DNA from: Nitrosovibrio sp. Nv4
GTDB taxonomy: Bacteria; Pseudomonadota; Gammaproteobacteria; Burkholderiales; Nitrosomonadaceae
Length of the DNA stretch: 64,000 bases
Reading direction: 5' to 3'
Assembly (NCBI GenBank): GCA_945860135.1
Contig: CAMAPK010000002.1
Location: forward strand, 62,001 to 126,000
Under the pieces are notes generated by a model, which did not search any database, was not told the origin of the DNA, and worked only from the letters and a program-made list of their open reading frames with translations. The translations under genes and the position numbers were made by a program. Of this stretch, positions 22,777 to 34,159 are shown one piece after another (position 1 is the stretch's first letter; each line of letters opens with the position of its first letter).

Positions 22777-23405
22777 AAAACATGACCATCCCTTCATGCC
22801 TCAAGCAAACGCTGCTGCTGGCCGGTTTGTTGATTTTTACCGCCCCGGTAACAGTTGCGCGCGACTACAGTGTGGGCGAGCGGCTGCCGTCTGCTCCTGC
22901 GAAGAGCGCTGACAAAACAACGCCTGCAGCAACTCCCCCAGCAACCCCGGCAATCACTTACAAAGAAATGACCTGGGACAATCTGATGCCCAAGAACTGG
23001 GATCCAATGGCTCCGTTAAAAGGGTTGAAGCTCGACAATCTCAGGGACGGTGATCCGCGCGCGATCGAGGCGCTGGAGAAAATACGCGAGGCCTGGAATA
23101 ACGCGCCGATTGAGCCTGCCCTGAATGGCGCGCGCATTCGTCTGCCGGGGTTCGTGATTCCTCTGGAGAAAGTGGGCGACAAAGTCAGCGAGTTTCTGCT
23201 CGTGCCTTATTTTGGCGCCTGCATCCATACGCCGCCGCCGCCATCCAACCAGATCATTCATGTGACCGCATCGAAGCCCATCAGCGGCATGCGCACGATG
23301 GACGCCATGTGGGTCAGCGGCGTCATGCATGCCGGCAAGATCGATACTGAAATGGGGCAGGCCGGTTACCAGTTGAAAGCCGAAGTGGTGGTACCTTATA
23401 AATGA
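22773..23405 (+). CDS. DUF3299 periplasmic protein of the ZrgA-like operon
   Basis: 210-residue exported protein. The start at 22773 overlaps the permease stop (ATGA) and gives a signal peptide of about 28 residues (LLLAGLLIFTAPVTVA). A Pro/Ala-rich linker follows, and then the DUF3299 core with IRLPGFVIPLEK, EFLLVPYFGACIHTPPPPSN and the terminal VSGVMHAGK block. The Cys-x-His within the GACIHTPPPP loop is a plausible metal ligand; this is inference. DUF3299 proteins regularly accompany ZrgA-type ABC systems. Last gene of the operon; no clear terminator was found in the following 170 bp. Confidence 0.85.
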   Translation: MKNMTIPSCLKQTLLLAGLLIFTAPVTVARDYSVGERLPSAPAKSADKTTPAATPPATPAITYKEMTWDNLMPKNWDPMAPLKGLKLDNLRDGDPRAIEALEKIREAWNNAPIEPALNGARIRLPGFVIPLEKVGDKVSEFLLVPYFGACIHTPPPPSNQIIHVTASKPISGMRTMDAMWVSGVMHAGKIDTEMGQAGYQLKAEVVVPYK

Positions 23406-23582
23406 CTTCAATGAGCAAGCAGGCGTTGCGAACGCTTGAGGTGGTTATTTCCGGTTTTTACCAATGCCAGTTTGGTGCCAGGAGCCGTCGTTACACGGCG
23501 TAAATTTTGTCAATCTGAGCGGCAGGTCTGCGCTTGTAAGCGACCTATCAACCGATAGCATCACACTTCAGCGATGAGTGTC

Positions 23583-24686
23583 TCAGCCGTTGCCCTGCGG
23601 GAACTCCAGAGTTACCAGCAGTCCGCTAGGGATTCTGTTTGCCGCGACAATGGTCCCACCGTGTGTATCCATGACTCTCCGGGAAATCGCCAATCCGAGT
23701 CCATAGCCGTCTGACGAATTTGAAGGGGAAATGCGAACGAAGGGTTCGAAGATCTGATTCAGCGAATCCTCGGGCACACCCGGACCACAATCGGAAACGG
23801 TGACGCGTACCAAACCACTCCTCACCGACGTGGAAATCACTACGGCAGTGTCCGACGGAGCAAAGCGAATAGCATTCCGCACAACATTTTCGATCGCTCG
23901 ATGTATGAATTCGTGACTGCCATTCATAACGATTGAATCTGGTCCATTGACAACAATTGAACATTGTTTTTTGTCCGCCACCAACCGTGTATCTTCGACA
24001 ATTTCTCCGATGATCTCGCCTAAATCCAATGCGCTTCCTTGATTCCCCGCTACACCAGCGTCGAGTCTTGCCAGTGTCAACAGTTCTCCCAACAAGGTAT
24101 CCATCCTGACCGTGTCTCGCTGAATTCGCTCCACAAATTCCGCGGTGCGGTCCGGTTGCTGCTGCATCAAGTTGGCCGCCGCTTGCAAACGTGCCAAGGG
24201 CGATCGTAGCTCGTGCGAGACATCGTGCAACAGTCGGTACTGTGTATCGATCAACCTCTCTAAGCGGCTAACCATGTGATCGAAGTACTTGGCCAGATCG
24301 ACAAGTTCGTCGTTGCGACTGCCCATTGATACCCCGATGCGGGTCGCCAATTGTCCTTCTGCCACTGACTCCAGAGCCGTTCGAAGAATACGGATCGGCC
24401 GTGCAAAATACCAGGCGAGAAGCCACGCAAAGAGGAGGCTAACCAAAGCGCCCGCGATGATAGGAATCAACGGAGGCGGAAGATGCTGGGGCGGTTCGCC
24501 GAATGGTGGCGGCCACCTCGGTTCGCCCTCCATCAAATTCGGGGGATGCGGCGGCCCTTCGAACGCAAATGGTACCCCGGGTCTTCCGTTAGGATGCATC
24601 GACCAGATCGCTAGACCAACACCCGCCGCCGTAGCGAATTGTGCCAGCCAAAAAATTAGAAAGAATTTCCAGAATAAGCGTCCCAT
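23583..24686 (-). CDS. CpxA-like sensor histidine kinase
   Basis: 367-residue inner-membrane kinase. Transmembrane helices lie at about residues 8-28 and 75-93, with a short periplasmic domain between them that is very rich in proline (PHPPNLMEGEPRWPPPFGEP is part). HAMP domain about 94-147; H-box HDVSHELRSPLARL with the phospho-acceptor His158; N-box ENVVRNAIRFAP; G-boxes DCGPGVPE and GYGLGLAISRRV. The HAMP/H-box region resembles CpxA. The start overlaps the stop of the response-regulator gene (TAATG), so the pair is co-translated. The periplasmic domain is shorter than that of E. coli CpxA, so the sensed cue may differ. Confidence 0.9.
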   Translation of the reverse strand: MGRLFWKFFLIFWLAQFATAAGVGLAIWSMHPNGRPGVPFAFEGPPHPPNLMEGEPRWPPPFGEPPQHLPPPLIPIIAGALVSLLFAWLLAWYFARPIRILRTALESVAEGQLATRIGVSMGSRNDELVDLAKYFDHMVSRLERLIDTQYRLLHDVSHELRSPLARLQAAANLMQQQPDRTAEFVERIQRDTVRMDTLLGELLTLARLDAGVAGNQGSALDLGEIIGEIVEDTRLVADKKQCSIVVNGPDSIVMNGSHEFIHRAIENVVRNAIRFAPSDTAVVISTSVRSGLVRVTVSDCGPGVPEDSLNQIFEPFVRISPSNSSDGYGLGLAISRRVMDTHGGTIVAANRIPSGLLVTLEFPQGNG

Positions 24687-25372
24687 TATTCGATAACCAG
24701 TTGGTAACCCTTGCGGGTCACGGTTTGAATTAACGAGCGGCCGTCGGCAAGTGTCCCAAGCTTTTGGCGAATGTTGCTCATATGGACGTCAATGCTACGA
24801 TCGAAGCGGGTCAAGGGTCTTCCGAGTCCTTCAAACGAAAGCTCTGCTTTGGATACAGGCAATCCGGCTTTGCGAACCAGCAACTCCACGAGGCTGAATT
24901 CAGTACTCGTGAGATCAATGGGCACACCGGCACGCTCGACACGCCGCTGCGACGGCAAAATCGTAAGGCTACCTGCGGTCATTGCGGTACCAGATGGAAC
25001 TCTATTTGATCCAGTGCGTTTAAGAATGGCGCGGATTCGCGCAGCTAACTCACGTGGAGTGCATGGCTTCGACACGTAGTCGTCAGCCCCTAGCTCTAAT
25101 CCGATGATCCGGTCAATATCATCGCTACGGGCCGTAAGCATAATGACCGGAATCGTGCTTGTGGCCCGAATTTGCCTGAGTGTCTCAAGCCCGCCGCTGC
25201 CGGGCAACATGATATCGAGGACGACAATATCCGCTGTGCCGGAAAGTGCGAGCTTCAGGCCAGATGCCCCATCAGGAGCAGTGACCAGGCCGAACCCATC
25301 TTCCTGAAGATAGTCCCGGACCAATTCCACAAGCTCAACATCGTCGTCCACCAAGAGCACCGTGCTAGTCAT
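24686..25372 (-). CDS. CpxR-like OmpR-family response regulator
   Basis: 228 residues: receiver domain with acidic triad D9/D10/D11 region, phospho-acceptor Asp53 (VVLDIMLPG), switch residue in MLTARSDD and Lys in SKPCTPREL; C-terminal winged helix (about 130-226). The recognition segment RPLTRFDRSIDVHMSNIRQK is close to the CpxR pattern LTPFDRAIDMHISNLRRK. GTAAA-N5-GTAAA repeats, the known CpxR box, lie 63-99 bp upstream in the sense orientation, implying autoregulation. Downstream partner is the CpxA-like kinase. The motif match supports a CpxR orthologue; binding has not been shown. Confidence 0.9.
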   Translation of the reverse strand: MTSTVLLVDDDVELVELVRDYLQEDGFGLVTAPDGASGLKLALSGTADIVVLDIMLPGSGGLETLRQIRATSTIPVIMLTARSDDIDRIIGLELGADDYVSKPCTPRELAARIRAILKRTGSNRVPSGTAMTAGSLTILPSQRRVERAGVPIDLTSTEFSLVELLVRKAGLPVSKAELSFEGLGRPLTRFDRSIDVHMSNIRQKLGTLADGRSLIQTVTRKGYQLVIE

Positions 25373-25434
25373 TTCTCTTCCATTCAGTTAGCCGTGTGGA
25401 ATCTTAGATCAAGCTCCGTCGACTCAAGCACTTC

Positions 25435-25471
25435 TTTACCAAGATTTACCTGTCTCTTAACAGCATTTTAC
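25435..25471. promoter_or_regulatory. Double CpxR-type box between cpxRA-like genes and small-peptide gene
   Basis: Plus-strand TTTAC units begin at 25435, 25445 and 25467, with a variant TTAAC at 25457. They form two pairs, each with 5 bp between units, the pairs offset by 22 bp (about two helical turns). Read on the minus strand this is GTAAA-N5-GTAAA, the CpxR consensus. A -10-like TATGAT at 25485-25490 faces the small-peptide gene. The site could control both divergent transcripts. Confidence 0.65.
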
Positions 25472-25544
25472 GCAGACGGCCCCCTATGATTTTGATCATG
25501 CTCGATCCGTCAATCCCGGTGGTCGGTAAATTTAGGAACCAGCC

Positions 25545-25646
25545 ATGAAACTTACCCGAGTGTCTCTGAGCAAACGACTTGCAATCGCTGCGGTGACAAT
25601 AATCCTACCCCTTTTAATAATGGTTTGGCTGTCTACTTTCGAGTAA
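25545..25646 (+). CDS. 33-residue single-span membrane peptide
   Basis: Short frame of 33 codons starting at ATG 25545, with AGGA eight bases upstream. The product begins MKLTRVSLSKRLAI and contains one hydrophobic stretch of about 18 residues (about 12-30) flanked by Lys/Arg on the N-side, so an N-in topology is expected. No cleavage motif is visible, so it is likely a small integral membrane protein rather than a signal peptide. It lies divergent from the CpxR-like gene behind a double CpxR-type box, the position held by cpxP in E. coli. A role in modulating the sensor kinase is an inference from location. Confidence 0.55.
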   Translation: MKLTRVSLSKRLAIAAVTIILPLLIMVWLSTFE

Positions 25647-25902
25647 CGGGGTTAGCACTGCGTACCTGAGCTGGAATTTCTGAGGCACTTATCCGGTGTT
25701 GGTTGGGTAAAAGGCATCCGGCGGCGGCAATTATTGCCAACAGATCCCCGGCAGGGCGGCCGCCAAATGCCATCATCTTGATTTGCCAAAGAATTAACAC
25801 AGATTTATATACAAACAATTTTGCCGGTTTAGGCTTGTCTCGATTTCGGCAGAAGATATTTGTCGTTTCGCGGCGATTCAAAGGCTCGTCGGCGGCGGTT
25901 TC

Positions 25903-25928
25903 TTAACTGGCTTTTACACGGCTTTACA
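25903..25928 (+). promoter_or_regulatory. CpxR-type box upstream of first EF-hand gene
   Basis: TTTACACGGCTTTACA at 25913-25928, two TTTAC units with exactly 5 bp between, preceded one turn upstream by TTAAC at 25903. A -10-like TATAAC lies at 25961, 38 bp from the last unit. The gene start is 103 bp downstream. Confidence 0.6.
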
Positions 25929-26031
25929 TCGGATACCGCAATTCTCAAGGGGTTCAGGCCTATAACTTGCGTAGGTAACGACATGTGCAATTCCGCACAT
26001 GCTGATTCACCATTCATGAAAGGAGCACATT

Positions 26032-26808
26032 ATGAGCAGCAACATTAGCAGTATCGGGGGCAACAACACTATGACGATGCAGAGCATGCGTGACATGAAG
26101 CGCCCCGACCCGACTCAGATGGCCGACCAGTTGTTTTCGAAGCTCGACACTTCCGGACAGGGCTATCTAACAAAAGTGGACCTGCAATCGGCCCTCGACA
26201 ATGTCTCATCCTCCTCAACCAATTCGTTATCGAGAACGTCTTCGAGCGCTGATCAGCTCTTCTCGAAGCTCGATACTAACGGCGATGGCAAAGTTACAAA
26301 GCAGGAGTTCTCCGACACGCTCAAGAAGGTTGCCGATCAACTCGACAACCAGTTCATGAGTATGCGAATGAACGGCGGTATGCAGGAAGGGGGGATGGGC
26401 AGCGGCATGCGCGGCATGATGATGGAGGGTACGCCGCCTCCGAGCGCCGATAACGGGGGCATGACGAAAGACCAACTGACAAGTTTGGTGAACAACATCG
26501 GTTCGTCTGATAGCACCGCATCTTCCAAGATATCCGATCTTCTCAAGAATTTCGACAAATCCGATACGAACGGTGATGGTAAAGTAAACATGCAGGAAGC
26601 GATGACTTACAATCAGGCGAATTCATCCAGTGGCTCTTCCTCCACCTCTTCAATGAGCAATTCTTCCTCGGCGAATTCAACCAGCGATGTTGAGAAGAAG
26701 TTGCTGCAACAGATTGCTCAATTGATGCAGGCCTACGGCATCGGTAATGACCAGTCTAGTCAATCCGGCATAAGCAGCTTGCTTTCGACGATTTCCGTTT
26801 CTGCGTGA
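26032..26808 (+). CDS. EF-hand calcium-binding protein, Ser/Met/Gly-rich
   Basis: 258-residue protein with two canonical EF-hand loops, DTNGDGKVTKQE (81-92) and DTNGDGKVNMQE (178-189), plus a degenerate one, DTSGQGYLTKVD (39-50). The loops sit in DQLFSKLD-type helices; the third lies in KISDLLKNFDKSDTNGD. Between them is a Met/Gly-rich segment (115-135), and after loop three a Ser/Asn-rich linker. A Shine-Dalgarno AAAGGAG precedes the ATG by about 8 bases. No Sec signal peptide or membrane span is seen, so it is cytoplasmic or exported by a non-Sec route. A CpxR-type box lies upstream and a strong hairpin downstream. Ca2+ binding is inferred from the loops; function is unknown. Confidence 0.88.
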   Translation: MSSNISSIGGNNTMTMQSMRDMKRPDPTQMADQLFSKLDTSGQGYLTKVDLQSALDNVSSSSTNSLSRTSSSADQLFSKLDTNGDGKVTKQEFSDTLKKVADQLDNQFMSMRMNGGMQEGGMGSGMRGMMMEGTPPPSADNGGMTKDQLTSLVNNIGSSDSTASSKISDLLKNFDKSDTNGDGKVNMQEAMTYNQANSSSGSSSTSSMSNSSSANSTSDVEKKLLQQIAQLMQAYGIGNDQSSQSGISSLLSTISVSA

Positions 26809-26820
26809 GCAATCTGAATT

Positions 26821-26848
26821 ACCGATGGGGCATCAATGCCCCATCGGT
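26821..26848 (+). terminator. Hairpin after first EF-hand gene
   Basis: Perfect 12-bp stem ACCGATGGGGCA / TGCCCCATCGGT around a TCAA tetraloop, 12 bp past the stop codon. No T-run follows, so it is either a weak terminator or an mRNA 3'-end stem separating two independently boxed genes. Confidence 0.6.
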
Positions 26849-26906
26849 GGTGCCCATACGAATAAGCCTCGCTGCCCGGCAATCCCAGAGTGCCAGTCGT
26901 TCATTC

Positions 26907-26922
26907 TTTACAGGGTTTTACA
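26907..26922 (+). promoter_or_regulatory. CpxR-type box upstream of second EF-hand gene
   Basis: TTTACAGGGTTTTACA: two TTTAC units (26907 and 26917) with 5 bp between. A -10-like GATAAC starts at 26955, 38 bp from the last unit, the same spacing as at the first EF-hand gene. The start codon is 90 bp downstream. Confidence 0.6.
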
Positions 26923-27012
26923 CGAAATCGAATTCAGAGTACGGGCTGTCTGCCGATAACAATACTAAGAACCCAAAGTTTCAGGGTCGCTAACCAACCT
27001 AAGGAGATTAGT

Positions 27013-27552
27013 ATGTCTATGTCAATCAACGCCGCCGGAAGTGGCAACGTGCAAGGATTTGACCCATCTAAAATGGCTTCCAATATAGCCTCAAAAATGA
27101 TGCGTGATCTTGACCCCAGTAATTCCGGTAGCGTAACCAAAGATAAGTTTGTCTCGGCGTTGACTGCCAAAGGGGTATCTTCAGCCGACGCCACCAAGAT
27201 GTACGATTCCATCGATACAAAAAGCACCGGCAGCATCACAAAATCCGATATTGAGTCAGCGATCAAGAGTGGCAGTCTCAAACCCCCATCTGGCGGTCCT
27301 TCTGGAGGATCTGAGCGACCGCATGGACCTGGCGGTGCTGGAGCTCCCGGTGGATCAGGTGGTTCGACAGGCGCTAGCCAGGCAGGTTCAAGCACATCTT
27401 CCAAGAACTACGAAGCCGCAGATACAAATCACGACGGAACGGTATCGTCTGAAGAAGCGGTGCTCTATACCTTGAAGCACCCTTCCGACGAATCATCTGC
27501 AAGCAAGCCGGCAACGAATGTACTTGGTAAAACCATCGATACGAAAGTGTGA
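27013..27552 (+). CDS. EF-hand protein with Gly/Ser/Pro-rich linker
   Basis: 179 residues from ATG 27013, preceded by a strong AAGGAG. Three EF-hand-like loops are seen: DPSNSGSVTKDK (34-45), DTKSTGSITKSD (68-79) and canonical DTNHDGTVSSEE (137-148). The first two lack the usual position-12 glutamate and are probably weak binders. Residues 91-130 form a Gly/Ser/Pro-rich disordered linker. No signal peptide or membrane span is visible. Related in plan to the preceding gene and probably co-regulated with it through its own CpxR-type box. Likely a paralogue; function unknown. Confidence 0.85.
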   Translation: MSMSINAAGSGNVQGFDPSKMASNIASKMMRDLDPSNSGSVTKDKFVSALTAKGVSSADATKMYDSIDTKSTGSITKSDIESAIKSGSLKPPSGGPSGGSERPHGPGGAGAPGGSGGSTGASQAGSSTSSKNYEAADTNHDGTVSSEEAVLYTLKHPSDESSASKPATNVLGKTIDTKV

Positions 27553-27696
27553 AATAGATCGAAGGACTTGTGTACCAGGTCATCGTCGACTCGACGTTCT
27601 GGATTTGAGGCCCTATGGGCGCGGCTTGATGACCGCAATCGCACCAGAAGAGGCCCGAACGTATTCGACTAACTTATGACCGCTGGGAGTCAATTG

Positions 27697-29279
27697 TGTT
27701 GAAAAACTCTCTTTTATTTCGAGCGTGGCGTTGGGTTAAGAATTGACTTCGAGGATTTTTAGCAGATTTCTCTGATCAATTTGGATGCGGACTGGAAGTT
27801 TGTCACCCATCTCGCCCTTAAGCGGGTATCAACTCTCCCTCCTGTGCTATCGGAGCCAACCATTTCGCCATTCGTCGTAAATTCTGTGCTGTTGCTGCCA
27901 ATAGAAACTCATCCTGTGCACCACTGAGTCCGCGTAATCGCAATCGATCAAGTTTCAGGATGCGTTTCATGTGCGCAAACAGCATCTCCACTTTCTTTCT
28001 GTCCTTGCATGATTGTTGGTAGGCAGCAGTCTTGGCGATGTTGCGTGCCACGTCACGTGCACTTTCATGAATGCTGCGGACGATCTTGCGAAATGGGGTG
28101 TTCGGACAGCAGCGATCTTTCATCAGACAGCCTGCGCAGGCTGGCTGACTTGAGCGATAGATGATCGTGTCGGCTTTCGTAATGTACGAGCGGGGGTTCT
28201 TGAGTGGGCGCCAATTGCTGCGCAGCGCATGGCCCTCAGGACATCGATATTCGTTGGCCTTTGCATTCCATTGGAAATCGCTACGCGAAAGGGTCCCGTC
28301 ATCACGCTCCGTCTTATCCCAAACGGGCACATGGGGTGCAATCCCTTTGTCATTGACCATCCAGTCCAGCATGGACGCAGTGCCATAGGCCGTATCTCCC
28401 ACCAAGCGCTCAGGTTTCATGTCGAACCGATCTTCCACGCGGTCAACCATGGTCTTGGTCGAATTCACTTCGTCCGTACGGTAGGCTGGAGTGGCTTCTG
28501 CATCAACGATGATGCCGGCCTTTAGATCGATCAGATAGTTGGTCGAGTACGCGTAGAAAGCCGGGCCTCCTGGCGCACCAGTCAAGCGTGCTGCCGGGTC
28601 AGTCGGTGAGATTGATTTGGGTAAGGTGCCGGTAGGATTGTTTTCATCCAAGGCGATCAGATACTCGCGTACTGCACGCGGTGAGGTTACCGGGTTGCCC
28701 CAGTCGATAAATTCATCGCCGGACATGCTGCGCAGACGGTTTGCATCAGCTTTGACAATACTGGCATCCACTGCAAACCCTTCGCCACCTACCAACCCCT
28801 CGAACATGCAGCGACGTAGAACCGTTTCAAACAGATGCCGGAATGCATCGCTATCGCGGAACCTGCCATGACGGTTCTTGGAGAAACTGGAGTGATCCGG
28901 TACAGCATCTTCCAGACCGAGTCGGCAGAACCAGCGATAGGCCAAGTTTAGATGTACTTCTTCACACAGACGACGTTCTGAGCGGATGCCAAAACTGTAA
29001 CCGATGATCAGCATCCGGATCATCAGTTCCGGGGCAATGGAGGGTCTGCCGGTATGGCTGTAGAACTCGGCCAGATGTTGGCGCAGGTCACTCAGGTCAA
29101 GGAAACGATCAATGCCGCGGAGAAGGTGATTCTGGGGAACGTGTTCTTCAAGGTCAAAAGAGTAGAAAAGGCGCTTTTGCTTATCCGTCTGAAACCCAAT
29201 CATATCAAGGCTCCCAGCTCAATTAGACATGCAAAATTATAACATTCTCAGCATCAAAATTCGACAGGGGTTTTCAACA
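27697..29279 (-). mobile_element. IS1182-family insertion sequence
   Basis: About 1.58 kb with a single transposase gene. Candidate terminal inverted repeats are TGTTGAAAAAC at 27697-27707 and its imperfect reverse complement GTTTTCAACA at 29270-29279. Flanks contain AATT on both sides, so the repeat may extend outward or AATT may be part of a target duplication; I cannot decide. The right end lies 30 bp from the duplicated valS tail. Confidence 0.75.
27818..29203 (-). CDS. IS1182-family DDE transposase
   Basis: 461-residue transposase. It has the N-terminal DUF772-type domain (LIRGIDRF-like block, then GRPSIAPELMIRMLIIGYSFG, SERRLCEEVHLNLAYRWFCR), catalytic acidic residues in FAVDASIVKADANR, LVGDTAYGTASMLDWM and the C-terminal glutamate region DRKKVEMLFAHMKRILKLDRLR. 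A Cys cluster CAGCLMKDRCCP lies at about 370-381. The frame is complete with no internal stop, so the element may be active. Confidence 0.93.
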   Translation of the reverse strand: MIGFQTDKQKRLFYSFDLEEHVPQNHLLRGIDRFLDLSDLRQHLAEFYSHTGRPSIAPELMIRMLIIGYSFGIRSERRLCEEVHLNLAYRWFCRLGLEDAVPDHSSFSKNRHGRFRDSDAFRHLFETVLRRCMFEGLVGGEGFAVDASIVKADANRLRSMSGDEFIDWGNPVTSPRAVREYLIALDENNPTGTLPKSISPTDPAARLTGAPGGPAFYAYSTNYLIDLKAGIIVDAEATPAYRTDEVNSTKTMVDRVEDRFDMKPERLVGDTAYGTASMLDWMVNDKGIAPHVPVWDKTERDDGTLSRSDFQWNAKANEYRCPEGHALRSNWRPLKNPRSYITKADTIIYRSSQPACAGCLMKDRCCPNTPFRKIVRSIHESARDVARNIAKTAAYQQSCKDRKKVEMLFAHMKRILKLDRLRLRGLSGAQDEFLLAATAQNLRRMAKWLAPIAQEGELIPA

Positions 29280-29309
29280 GAATTAGTCGGGAACAGACCA
29301 TCGCGACTT

Positions 29310-29831
29310 AAAGAGTTGCTCAACCTAGTTTCTGCAACTGTTCCTGCAATTTTTCCAGCGTCGCAGCGAAATTGGCGAGGCGCTCTTTTTCCTGCTGCAC
29401 TACCTTGGCCGGGGCGCGTTCGACGAAACTGGGGTTGGCGAGTTTGATTTTAGCCTTGGTGGTTTCACCTTCGATGCGGGCAATTTCTTTGGACAGACGC
29501 TCACGTTCAGCGACTACATCCACTTCGATTTTCAGCATCAATCTGAATTCGCCAGCGATCGCTACCGGCGCATCGGCATCGGGCAGTTTGTCCTGCATGA
29601 TTTCCACCCCGGATAACTTGGCCAGAGCCACCAGATAGGGAGAGAAGTCAGTCAGTATCTGCTGGTCTCCCGCCACCAGCAGCGGGACTCTTGCCGCCGG
29701 CGACAGGTTCATTTCGCTGCGCAGGGTACGGCAGGCATTGATTATTTCCTTGAGTGCGGCGATACGCTGGCTGGCATTCTCGTCAATGCGCGTCGCATCG
29801 GCCTGGGGGTAGGGTTGGAGCATGATGCTTG
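29310..29831 (-). pseudogene. valS: Duplicated 3' end of valS (copy 1 of a 522-bp direct repeat)
   Basis: The minus strand encodes the last 167 residues of valyl-tRNA synthetase ([18 protein letters not shown] onward to [12 protein letters not shown]), the C-terminal coiled-coil arm, with no catalytic domain. It aligns without gaps to 30826..31347, the end of the intact valS; by eye about 47 of 522 bases differ (about 91% identity) and about 15 of 167 residues. The copies bracket a toxin-antitoxin pair. The fragment has an ATG but no likely independent function. It probably represents the displaced original tail, or a donor tail brought in with the insert. Confidence 0.9.
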
Positions 29832-29840
29832 TGAAGAATT

Positions 29841-29902
29841 AAAGGGGTCAGGTTCAGATTAAATTGTTGGCGAAATTAAAGAGGTCGGGTTCGGATTGAA
29901 TT
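29841..29902. repeat. Two imperfect 25-bp tandem repeats at the edge of the inserted segment
   Basis: AAAGGGGTCAGGTTCAGATT... (29841-29865) and AAAGAGGTCGGGTTCGGATT... (29878-29902) match at 21 of 25 positions. A partly similar GAGGTGGATTCGGAATTCGC occurs at 30789-30808, on the other side of the toxin-antitoxin genes. These may mark the ends of the inserted unit. Confidence 0.55.
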
Positions 29903-29978
29903 CGCACTCCGCAGGCGGACCCCAGAGGCAGCTTCACATTTGTTTCAGTGCGATTAAGCCCCAGCAATTGCTATGCCA

Positions 29979-30344
29979 TCATGCAATTGCCTTGCCCCGT
30001 GTGCCGGCTGGTTTGGTAGAAGCGGCGCGAACTTTTGCTGCCGGTTTTTGAGCGATGTGATCGAGCAAGACAGGCGGACGGTTGGGGAAGCGTGCGACCA
30101 GATCGAGTTCACCGCCCATTGCCTGGATATAGCGGCGCAGGGTGGAGAGCAGCAAGTCGCTGCGGTGTTCAATGCGTGAAATGGTGTCCTGTCCTACCCC
30201 AAGGCTCGCGGCGAGATCTTGTTGGGTGTGCTCAACGGCCAGGCGCAAGTCCTTGAGCGTTGCCAGTTCACCTGCGCGCTGTTCCACTTTTGCACGACGC
30301 TTGGGCGGCAACGCAGCCAATACATCATTTAGATTTTTTGCCAT
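29979..30344 (-). CDS. XRE-family antitoxin (HigA-like)
   Basis: 121-residue protein with a Cro/C1-type helix-turn-helix: QQDLAASLGVGQDTISRIEH, then RSDLLLSTLRRYIQAMGGEL, followed by a basic Ala/Lys-rich C-terminal tail. It follows the toxin gene with a 20-bp overlap, the toxin-first order typical of HigBA modules. It probably binds its own promoter upstream of the toxin and neutralises the toxin. Base composition resembles the surrounding genes. Confidence 0.87.
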   Translation of the reverse strand: MAKNLNDVLAALPPKRRAKVEQRAGELATLKDLRLAVEHTQQDLAASLGVGQDTISRIEHRSDLLLSTLRRYIQAMGGELDLVARFPNRPPVLLDHIAQKPAAKVRAASTKPAGTRGKAIA

Positions 30345-30729
30345 GATTCTTCTCCTTTACCTGCTTTGAAATACTGGCCGCTTTGAGCGTAGCCAGATGT
30401 TCGTCAAATCTTGCGTCGGCACTGGTAATCAGATTCTTATAGAATCGTCGCTGATCTGCACCACCCTTGTCGCCGCTCACCAGCAGAATTGCTGTGCGTG
30501 CTGTATCGAATGCAAAAGCCACCCGCCATACCCCGCCTGCACAATCGAAACGCAGCTCTTTCATATTCGCGTGCTTCGAGCCTTTGAGCGTATCCACCGT
30601 TGGCCTGCCCAAGTGGGGGCCGAATTCCTGAAGGAGCCGGGCATGGGCGAGCAATTCATCCTGGAGCACACCTCCCATCGCCTGAAACTCGGTGTAAAAA
30701 TCATCGTGAAAGAGCACGTTCCAGAACAT
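30325..30729 (-). CDS. RelE/HigB-like toxin (phage Gp49-like family)
   Basis: 134-residue protein. The core VDTLKGSKHANMKELRFDCAG... then WRVAFAFDTARTAILLVSGDKGG and RRFYKNLI fits the Gp49-like/HigB group of RelE-fold mRNA interferases, with conserved Lys, Arg and a C-terminal Tyr positioned for ribosome-dependent mRNA cleavage. A lysine-rich tail (KEKNHGKKSK) overlaps the antitoxin start. The module lies between two copies of the valS 3' end. Confidence 0.87.
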   Translation of the reverse strand: MFWNVLFHDDFYTEFQAMGGVLQDELLAHARLLQEFGPHLGRPTVDTLKGSKHANMKELRFDCAGGVWRVAFAFDTARTAILLVSGDKGGADQRRFYKNLITSADARFDEHLATLKAASISKQVKEKNHGKKSK

Positions 30730-30825
30730 GGACAGATTATGGACTTAAAGACATATTATTTCAAGGGGGTCGTGTACAAAAATCAGAAGAGGTGGATTCG
30801 GAATTCGCTTGTTCTGGATACAACC

Positions 30826-31347
30826 AAAGAACTGCTCAGCCCAGTTTCCGCAACTGTTCCTGCAGCTTCTCCAGCGTCGCAGCGAAATTGGCGAGGCGTT
30901 CTTTTTCCTGCTCCACCACCTTGGGCGGGGCGCGCTCGACGAAACTGGGGTTGGCAAGCTTGATTTCGGCCTTGGCCATTTCATTTCCGATGCGGGCAAT
31001 TTCCTTGGACAGACGCTCACGTTCAGCGACCACATCCACTTCGATTTTCAGCATCAATCTGAATTCGCCAACGATCGCTACCGGCGCATCGGCATCGGGC
31101 AGCTTGTCCGGCATGATTTCCACCCCGGATAACTTGGCCAGCGCCGTCAGGTAGGGGGAGAAGTCGCTCAGCATCTGCTGATCTCCTGCTGCCAGCAGCG
31201 GGACTCTTGCCGCTGGCGACAGGTTCATTTCGCTGCGCAGGGTACGGCAGGCGTTGATTATTTCCTTAAGTGCGGCGATACGTTGGCTGGCATTTTCGTC
31301 AATGCGCGCCGCATCGGCCTGGGGGTAGGGCTGGAGCATGATGCTTG
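30826..31347 (-). repeat. Copy 2 of the 522-bp direct repeat (3' end of intact valS)
   Basis: Covers the last 171 codons of valS and 10 bp beyond its stop. It matches 29310..29831 in the same orientation without indels. The end of similarity inside valS is abrupt after GCATGATGCTTG. Confidence 0.9.
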
Positions 31348-34159
31348 CGCCTTGCTTGCCCGCCAGCGGCGCGATTCTCTGCCAAAGTTCTTCGGTGATG
31401 AACGGAATGATGGGATGGGCCAGCCGCAGCGTGGTTTCCAGCACCCGTACCAGGGTGTGGCGGGTGGCGCGCTGCACGGCGTCGCTGCCGCCGGTTAGCT
31501 GTACCTTGGCAAGTTCCAGATACCAGTCGCAATATTCGTCCCAGACGAATTCATAGATTTCGCGTGCTGCGGTATCGAAGCGATAATCGTGAAATGCCTG
31601 TGCTACCGCACTTTCTGCTTGCTGCAAGCGACCGATGATCCAGCGGTCGGCATCGGAGAATTCCAGCGGCAGCGCATCAGTTGCACCCGCATCCAGAGCC
31701 GTGTCCTTGCCGTCGCAATTCATCAGCACGTAGCGTGTGGCATTCCACAGCTTGTTGCAGAAATTGCGGTAGCCTTCACAACGCTGCATATCGAATTTGA
31801 TGTCGCGACCATGCGAGGCGAGGCTGGCGAAAGTGAAGCGCAATGCATCGGTGCCGAATGCGGGAATGCCTTCTGGGAAATGCTTGCGGGTGATTTTTTC
31901 GATCGACTCGGCTTGCGCGGGATTCATCAGCCCGGTGGTGCGCTTGGCAATCAGATCCGGCAGCGCGATGCCGTCGATGAGATCCAGCGGGTCCAGCACA
32001 TTGCCTTTGGATTTGCTCATCTTATGGCCTTCCGAATCGCGGATCAGGCCGGTCACATAGACTTCGCGGAAAGGCACCTTGCCGGTGAAATGCAGCGACA
32101 TCATCACCATGCGCGCCACCCAGAAGAAGATGATGTCGAAGCCCGTGACCAGCACCGACGTCGGCAGGAAAGTCTTGAGCTCCGGCGTTTCTTCCGGCCA
32201 GCCCAGAGTCGAGAACGGCCACAATGCGGAAGAAAACCAGGTATCGAGCACATCCTCGTCCTGCATGAGCTTGCGCTCACCGGCCTGCTGCTGCGCTTCT
32301 TCCAGACTGTGGGCAACGTAGATTCTGCCGCTCTCGTCATACCATGCCGGAATCCGGTGCCCCCACCATAATTGGCGCGAAATGCACCAGTCCTGGATAT
32401 TTTCCAGCCACTGGTTATAAACGTGACTCCAGTTTTCCGGGACGAATTTTACCTCGCCGCTCGCCACCACTTCCAGTCCGCGTTTGGCCAGATCCTCCAT
32501 CGCCACGTACCACTGATCAGTGAGCATTGGTTCGATCACTGCATGAGTTCGGTCACCGCGCGGCACCATCAGCTTGTGCGGCTTGATCTCAGCCAGCAGC
32601 TCCAGTGCGCCGAGGTCGGCGATGATTTTAGTGCGCGCCGCGAAGCGATCCATGCCTTGATACTCAACCGGTGCGTGGTCATTTATCTTCCCATCCAGTG
32701 TGAGAATATTGAGCGGAACCAGCTTGTGCCGCAGACCCATCTGGTAGTCGTTGAAATCGTGCGCCGGGGTGATTTTTACGCAGCCAGTGCCGAATTTCGG
32801 GTCCACATAGGTATCGGCGATGATCGGAATACTGTGCCAGGCCGCTGGGGTGCTGGCCGATAACGGCAGACGCACAGCGCGACCAATCAGGTGGCGGTAG
32901 CGCTGGTCATCCGGATGCACGGCAACCGCCATATCTCCCAGCATGGTCTCGGGACGGGTGGTGGCGACAACAAGATAGGTCAAGCCATTTTGCAGATCCG
33001 GTTCGGTCAGCGGATAACGGATATGCCAGAGAGAGCCGTCTTCTTCGGTCGATGCCACTTCCAGATCGGATACCGCAGTTTGCAGCACCGGGTCCCAGTT
33101 CACCAGTCGCTTGCCGCGGTAGATCGCGCCTTCGCGATAAAGCCGTACGAACACTTCGGTGACGGCGCGGGACAAACCTTCGTCCATGGTGAAACGCTCG
33201 CGTGACCAGTCGCAGGAAGTCCCTAGTCGCCGCATCTGGCGGGTGATGGTGGAGCCGGATTCCTCTTTCCACTGCCACACGCGGCTGAGAAATTCCTCGC
33301 GTCCCAGGTCACGACGATTGATGTTCTGCTGATCCAGTTGTCGCTCCACCACGATCTGGGTGGCGATGCCGGCGTGATCGGTTCCCGGTTGCCACAAGGT
33401 GTTGTCGCCGAGCATACGGTGGTAGCGCGAGAGTGCATCCATCAGCGTGTGCTGGAATGCGTGCCCCATATGCAGTGTGCCAGTAACGTTGGGCGGCGGC
33501 AGCATGATGCAGTAGGCAGACGCTGTGGCAGCAACCCCTTCAGCGGCGATGGGCTTGAAATAACCGGCGGAATCCCAGACGGAATACCAGTGGTTCTCAA
33601 TAGGTTGAGGATCAAAACTTTTTGTGAGGTCCATGGAGATCGGGTTTGAATCCGCTGCTGCTGGAAAGCCGGTCATTATAGAGGAAGGAACGGGTACCGG
33701 CGTCACGGCTGGTTGAGATGCGCTCGGCAAGAAGTCTGCATCGGTGCCCGCATTGTAGTTTTCAGCGCGATTCGGATCGGGCGTCACCAGAGATCCTTGT
33801 AAATGACGTTCCAGCGCCTGAACCAGCGCTGCTTGTGCTGTGCTATCCAGATCTATCCCCGTTTCCTTCAGCGCAGCATCCACAATCTGTCGTAGCGGCG
33901 GTGTGGCTTCAGGTTGGGATGCTGTAGGGAGAAATACTACTTCCGTAAGGGTCGGGATGCCGTCGGTTACTGGAGGTATGATTTGCTCCAGGGTGGAGTC
34001 GAAGACCTGGGTGAGAACCGGAACAGATGCCACCTTGTCCTCCACTGCCGGCTCAGTCACTACCGCGGGCTTGCCCTGGTGTTTGCTCAGCAACGCATCA
34101 AGCTTGTCCAGAACTTCATCATGATCGGGTTCTGGTGAAATTTCGTTGTCGTCTGTCAT
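30836..34159 (-). CDS. valS: Valyl-tRNA synthetase with N-terminal extension
   Basis: Class Ia synthetase charging tRNA-Val. The 1107-residue frame has HMGH at 230-233 (HIGH motif), KMSKS at 713-717, an editing domain between, and the C-terminal coiled-coil arm. Normal ValRS is about 930-950 residues and begins with a block like [18 protein letters not shown], which here starts at M176. Residues 1-175 are an in-frame acidic, Pro/Thr-rich extension with two motifs VPVLTQVF (46-53) and IPTLTEVV (68-75) and a helical [15 protein letters not shown] segment. No stop separates it and M176 lacks a Shine-Dalgarno sequence, so a fusion with the small gene usually expected between holC and valS is likely. 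The last 171 codons are duplicated downstream. Confidence 0.95.

Follow-up and report, generated by a model that had tools for sequence, protein, structure and literature searches.

The locus described here lies in a 64 kb stretch of Nitrosovibrio sp. Nv4 DNA (the window) and comprises genes for a CpxA-like histidine kinase and a CpxR-like response regulator on one strand, and on the other genes for two EF-hand proteins, EF1 and EF2 (Table 1). The kinase has, by eye, a sensor loop of ~40 residues between two hydrophobic stretches, and several Pfam EF-hand models exceed their cut-offs in both EF-hand proteins. The best family match of the kinase and regulator is the CpxP-CpxR-CpxA system of E. 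coli (Sinorhizobium meliloti homologue SMb21562-21560), and by its sequence features this is a short-sensor Cpx-type system with putative EF-hand outputs. An earlier note on this DNA had proposed that CpxR-type boxes join these genes into a dedicated regulon. Gene order, the boxes themselves, their conservation, and their restriction to Cpx-type loci support a regulon that reaches the EF-hand genes.

Three exact copies of the direct repeat TTTAC-N5-TTTAC are present within 1.5 kb, as the earlier note had claimed (25435-25449, 25913-25927, and 26907-26921, all on the plus strand). The mean in 100 shuffles of the window was 0.01, and no shuffle reached three. Allowing one mismatch brought the total to five (shuffle mean 1.16), with the additional boxes starting at 25457 and 25903. 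The first of these is the TTAAC-variant pair that had been noticed near the cpxR-like gene, and it makes the regulator promoter a double site. The second, which had been overlooked, extends the box upstream of EF1 to three half-sites, TTAAC-N5-TTTAC-N5-TTTAC (25903-25927). The gaps from box to ATG are 104 and 91 nt for EF1 and EF2, each one more than the 103 and 90 bp given before; the spacing from box to ATAAC is indeed equal in the two EF-hand promoters, at 34 nt from the box end and not 38. Elsewhere in the assembly (2.04 Mb, 39 contigs, 89% complete) exact boxes are few: six were found in all, against three for a reversed control, and the three outside the window lie within a 752-amino acid open frame, at the end of a 500-amino acid frame, and in a repeat-rich intergenic stretch, none of them before a likely target. 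A short motif, and a remainder that equals the reversed-control number, are what an origin of the window repeats by chance would give; the window shuffles and the conservation in relatives make such an origin extremely improbable.

Relatives carry the same arrangement. Named genomes were scanned with EF1, and two loci were examined and 78 further loci scanned for boxes. The first, from Rhodocyclales bacterium RIFCSPLOWO2_02_FULL_63_24 (L008), has the gene order of the window (kinase, regulator, boxes, EF-hand gene) and an EF-hand protein 56% identical to EF1; in a DNA alignment the array is retained upstream of the EF-hand gene, and a box begins 62 nt from the regulator start. The second (L009), with an EF-hand relative, had neither box nor regulator match, and the remaining 78 loci contained one exact box (L049) and one variant (L077). 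Among 399 genomes of the order, a kinase query matched 62 at 1e-60, from which 13 loci, mostly full-length matches, were fetched. An EF-hand profile matched 45 of the 399, and 43 were read, all but G213 and G392, which, second hits aside, were the weakest two. With L008 these gave 44 EF-hand loci: 19 with the EF-hand gene at most 3 kb from a regulator at least 50% identical to that of the window (Cpx class), 17 with a less similar regulator (other class), and eight without a regulator match.

Boxes were sought as TT(T/A)AC-N5-TT(T/A)AC in sense orientation up to 200 bp upstream of the EF-hand start. They precede the EF-hand gene in 19 of 19 Cpx-class loci, 17 times as three-half-site arrays, and in none of the 17 loci beside other OmpR-type regulators; shuffled upstream regions gave a mean of 0.07 loci with boxes and a maximum of one (300 rounds). 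The earlier note had proposed a search for this box-plus-EF-hand arrangement in related genomes, and had named loss of the repeats in relatives with the same gene order as the observation that would speak against its regulon; the arrangement was found in the 19 Cpx-class loci, and the repeats were conserved there and absent from the 17 others. The 19 loci span families f1, f5, f14, f15, f20, f24, f25, and f51, plus L008. Because both classes include members of f5, f15, and f20, lineage alone is insufficient to explain the contrast. In a regulator tree the Cpx-type regulators form a single clade (99/95), within which the window groups with L008 (99/93); one of the 17 other-class regulators (L206) exceeds the OmpR cut-off. 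Among the eight loci without a regulator match, a sense-orientation box occurred in L207 only, with just nine bases available upstream in L190. A class-wide search of 266 genomes returned two matches besides the window, one with a Cpx-type locus (L266) and one without (L267). L266, from outside the order, has boxes followed by an LTxxQ-motif gene (by eye) and the EF-hand gene, opposite a regulator 64% identical to that of the window.

Table 1. Features of the Nitrosovibrio sp. Nv4 locus, with positions in the window.
Feature	Position	Strand	Basis
Stretch absent from genus relative G001, 7.4 kb: module, IS1182-family transposase, second valS 3' end, small gene pair	23402..30839	.	genome alignment, family searches
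CpxA-like histidine kinase, 367 aa, short Pro-rich sensor loop	23583..24686	-	Pfam HAMP, HisKA, HATPase_c; best NCBIfam CpxA
CpxR-like OmpR-family response regulator, 228 aa	24686..25372	-	Pfam Response_reg and Trans_reg_C; best NCBIfam CpxR
CpxR-type box in the regulator's own promoter, GTAAA-N5-GTAAA in regulator sense	25435..25449	-	exact-box search, relatives' promoters
Second, variant box in the regulator promoter, GTAAA-N5-GTTAA in regulator sense	25457..25471	-	one-mismatch search, relatives' promoters
33-aa hydrophobic peptide frame	25545..25647	+	open frame; no family match
Three-half-site array TTAAC-N5-TTTAC-N5-TTTAC before EF-hand gene 1	25903..25927	+	box searches, gene-blind scan, relatives
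-10-like element TATAAC, EF-hand gene 1	25961..25966	+	position after array kept in relatives
EF-hand protein 1 (EF1), 258 aa	26032..26808	+	Pfam EF-hand models above cut-off; three loops by pattern
Box before EF-hand gene 2	26907..26921	+	exact-box search
-10-like element GATAAC, EF-hand gene 2	26955..26960	+	same distance from box as gene 1
EF-hand protein 2 (EF2), 179 aa	27013..27552	+	Pfam EF-hand models above cut-off; weak EF1-profile match
IS1182-family transposase gene	27818-29203	-	family search

The regulator's own promoter is marked in the same way. GT(A/T)AA-N5-GT(A/T)AA, read in regulator sense, lies 63-148 nt upstream of the start in 24 of 28 Cpx-type regulators and in none of 21 other regulators; L220 and L221 were fetched by the array, and without them the count for autoregulation, 22 of 26, is fairer. 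Those without a box of their own are L128, L129, L200, and L201, and in the latter two the box belongs to a co-oriented EF-hand gene located ahead of the regulator. By eye, cpxR promoters show TATCAT-like elements in place of the -10 block of EF-hand promoters. The regulator-promoter box is also conserved in loci without an EF-hand gene (e.g., L119, L120, and L127), as would be expected if the boxes served the regulator only and the EF-hand genes were neighbors by chance or for other reasons. We consider this very improbable, as in all 19 loci the EF-hand genes have separate arrays (counting single pairs) of their own, and arrays also precede an EF-hand gene unlinked to any regulator (L207, in a genome whose Cpx-type locus, L130, is elsewhere) and an EF2-like gene of family f34.

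The array was also sought regardless of genes, as TTAAC-N5-TTTAC-N5-TTWAC, in the 399 genomes. It occurs at 22 places in 21 genomes, against 10 for the reversed control. Thirteen of the 22 places precede EF-hand genes, 12 of them of EF1 type and one in L180 (family f34), where the array stands 96 bp before the gene for an 80-amino acid EF-hand protein that the C-terminal part of EF2 matches at 19 of 46 residues. Two further places are in cpxR promoters (G234 and G387). In L123 (8548-9177) the array precedes a Ser-rich protein with an N-terminus like that of the EF-hand family and no Pfam match, EF-hand models included, and L218 (G432) retains the array, together with a -10 block resembling that of family f15 EF-hand promoters, in front of a different gene.

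When EF-hand promoters are aligned on the last half-site, a block with consensus GGCCGATAACTTGC appears at +29 to +42, at a nearly constant distance; at this place the window carries TATAAC (EF1) and GATAAC (EF2). Activation by the regulator is favored because the sites end upstream of the -10-like element, as expected for activation. The opposite arrangement, in which the regulator on the arrays keeps the EF-hand genes off until lost phosphorylation frees them, has a precedent in CpxR, which both represses and activates according to the passages on it in PMC2912261, and sequence alone does not tell the two apart. The sites stop 33-34 nt before the -10-like element without covering it, and we regard repression as quite improbable.

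The core of the promoter block, GCCGATAA, resembles a sigma-28 element. Were sigma-28 (FliA) to read these promoters, the Cpx-type regulator would be a modulator, and the EF-hand proteins would belong to a motility or flagellar-export program. The GCCGATAA-like block sits at a fixed place; allowing one mismatch, 13 of 20 EF-hand promoters of the Cpx class contain its core, as do 4 of 17 other-class promoters and 1 of 6 from loci lacking a regulator, compared with 4 of 20, 1 of 17, and 1 of 6 in the reversed control. Of the 19 genomes in the set, 18 have FliA above its cut-off. However, the sole exception is the genome of the window (89% complete), FliA is absent from seven of nine genus genomes, three of them >90% complete, and present in the other two, and EF1 of the window has TATAAC at the block position. 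This reading appears improbable to us. The window genome nevertheless holds 20 sigma-28-like sites against three control sites despite having no FliA above cut-off. At C2:7888, C10:32025, C19:30021, and C39:3524 it has TAAAGTTT and GCCGATA separated by the spacing of sigma-28 elements; these sites may be relics, may point to a missing contig, or may have another reader. Sigma-54, with its GG-N10-GC pattern, fits many EF-hand promoters by eye and was rejected for its misfit at EF2, L118, L192, L202, and L203.

Several observations weigh against a Cpx-type regulator acting on EF-hand genes. The best NCBIfam models for the kinase are CpxA models, at 256 and 213 bits, below their cut-offs of 800 and 486, and the alignment begins past the sensor part; CpxR is the top NCBIfam model for the regulator at 201 bits, short of its cut-off of 341. 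The predicted structure of EF1 is weak (mean pLDDT 58). The threshold dividing the two classes (50% identity, 3 kb) was set after inspection of the data, and the 19 and 17 loci are not independent events because they overlap in ancestry. Among individual loci, L128 and L129 lack a box at the regulator, L122 and L199 have a single pair instead of an array, and the boxes of L212 are confined to the opposite strand; the EF-hand gene of G390 (L197) is boxless although that genome has a Cpx-type locus, and in G169 and G428, both matched by the kinase query, the EF-hand genes adjoin other regulators and have no box. To these is added the control level of the gene-blind scan, five of whose 22 places resemble background.

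The EF-hand proteins are acidic and cysteine-free, with a Ser-rich N-terminus, a conserved tail, and no evident Sec signal. With the ends read by eye, acidic residues are absent from positions 2-12 in 20 of 21 Cpx-class proteins, cysteine is absent in 19 of 21, and the terminal residue is alanine in 20 of 21; the corresponding numbers in the other class are 17 of 17, 17 of 17, and 16 of 17. The two cysteine rows are L191 and L204, where the script-chosen start codons look wrong. Because an evident Sec signal is missing and the terminal features are shared, export by a non-Sec route is suggested, a tentative proposal that we hold to be nearly as probable as its opposite. The nine EF-hand proteins scanned have as their top NCBIfam match, over the EF-hand part, the XopAW family (NF041410) of calcium-binding type III effectors from plant pathogens; at 32.7-62.8 bits against a cut-off of 120 membership was rejected, and unlike those effectors the window-type proteins give no sign of injection.

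Upstream of EF-hand genes beside other OmpR-type regulators, other repeats were seen by eye, such as GTATC/GATAC pairs or CTTAC repeats (L188, L189, L193, L194, L196, L208, L210, and L211; L206 and L209). The EF-hand family may recur as an output of two-component systems.

Genes near the regulator were also compared. A CpxP/Spy-type LTXXQ gene adjoins the regulator in L119, L123, and L130 and lies behind the EF-hand gene in L121, and none that is CpxP-like was found among the window neighbors scanned with Pfam. That the EF-hand protein stands in for CpxP was rejected as a general rule, because L121 and, by LTxxQ motifs seen by eye, L266 carry both. TolC-MacA-MacB exporter-like genes lie downstream in L118 and L121 (by eye). 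The earlier note had also counted a membrane peptide, encoded between the regulator and EF1, as a regulon member; this is unsupported, with no Pfam or NCBIfam family and no tblastn match in 15 related loci, a search to which a 33-amino acid query brings little power.

In the genus relative G001 the alignment with the window breaks off after 23401 and picks up again at the valS 3' end, of which the window holds two copies (about 29320-29831 and 30840-31349), so that 23402-30839 is extra in the window. As expected for a self-contained circuit, this stretch contains the kinase and regulator genes, the two EF-hand genes, and all the boxes preceding them. At the same site G009 carries 1.7 kb of different DNA, and the other eight genus genomes contain no kinase match above 29% identity; the flanking permease gene (21490) is conserved in seven of them, at 89-97% identity. 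Absence of the module from genus relatives, taken with its placement beside L008, points to transfer, and the module was probably acquired horizontally. A search of plasmids with the EF-hand protein of L124 gave no match. Between the two valS 3' ends lie genes for a helix-turn-helix protein (29979-30344) and a Gp49-like protein (30325-30729), a toxin-antitoxin-like pair.

Taken together, these features probably describe a self-contained, mobile Cpx-type two-component module that would regulate itself and activate EF-hand genes, with their products perhaps exported without Sec. The kinase would activate the CpxR-like regulator, which would bind the tandem TTTAC/TTAAC half-sites (GTAAA-N5-GTAAA on the other strand). 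Boxes next to the regulator gene would confer autoregulation, and the sites ending 33-34 nt before a -10-like element would activate the divergent EF-hand genes. The EF-hand proteins would be the dedicated output, probably binding calcium and perhaps leaving the cytoplasm by a non-Sec route and acting at or outside the envelope. We infer regulator binding, activation in place of repression, calcium binding, and envelope stress as the signal from the sequence.

The module resembles CpxAR in using the same box, GTAAA-N5-GTAAA (described in parts of PMC9600279 and PMC2912261), in having it in the regulator's own promoter, and in the CpxP-like LTXXQ gene of four related loci. It differs in its scores below curated cut-offs, its short sensor loop, and the lack of a CpxP-like gene among the window neighbors scanned, as well as in its EF-hand targets, none of which is named in the passages of PMC9600279 or PMC2912261 on Cpx. 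In the CaBP-SigV circuit of Caulobacter vibrioides an EF-hand protein is likewise part of a stress regulator circuit, but the portion of PMC13171946 describing it has an extracytoplasmic function (ECF) sigma factor and not a two-component system, and CaBP is a periplasmic protein with a Sec signal. Pseudomonas aeruginosa has both an EF-hand protein, EfhP, and a calcium-induced two-component system, CarSR; in the relevant part of PMC9132961 the two are treated as separate pathways, with no EF-hand gene described as a CarSR target.

No publication joining CpxR with EF-hand genes was found in the open-licence literature, and the link between Cpx-type regulators and EF-hand genes, as read from these genomes, is apparently real and undescribed. 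The link joins a model envelope stress response, Cpx, to bacterial calcium signaling, in which few circuits are defined. Being conserved and absent beside other regulator types, it makes the regulon predictable from sequence in unstudied bacteria, and the compact unit of kinase, regulator, box, and target is transferable into a laboratory strain. A bolder proposal, which we think rather unlikely, is that the mobile module mainly sends out calcium-binding proteins: regulators on three-half-site arrays would switch on cysteine-free EF-hand proteins exported without Sec, Cpx signaling would act outward on cell-surface calcium, beyond folding factors, and other OmpR-type systems, which have their own repeats, would have adopted the same EF-hand family. 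If this is true, the EF-hand family would be a general output of envelope two-component systems.
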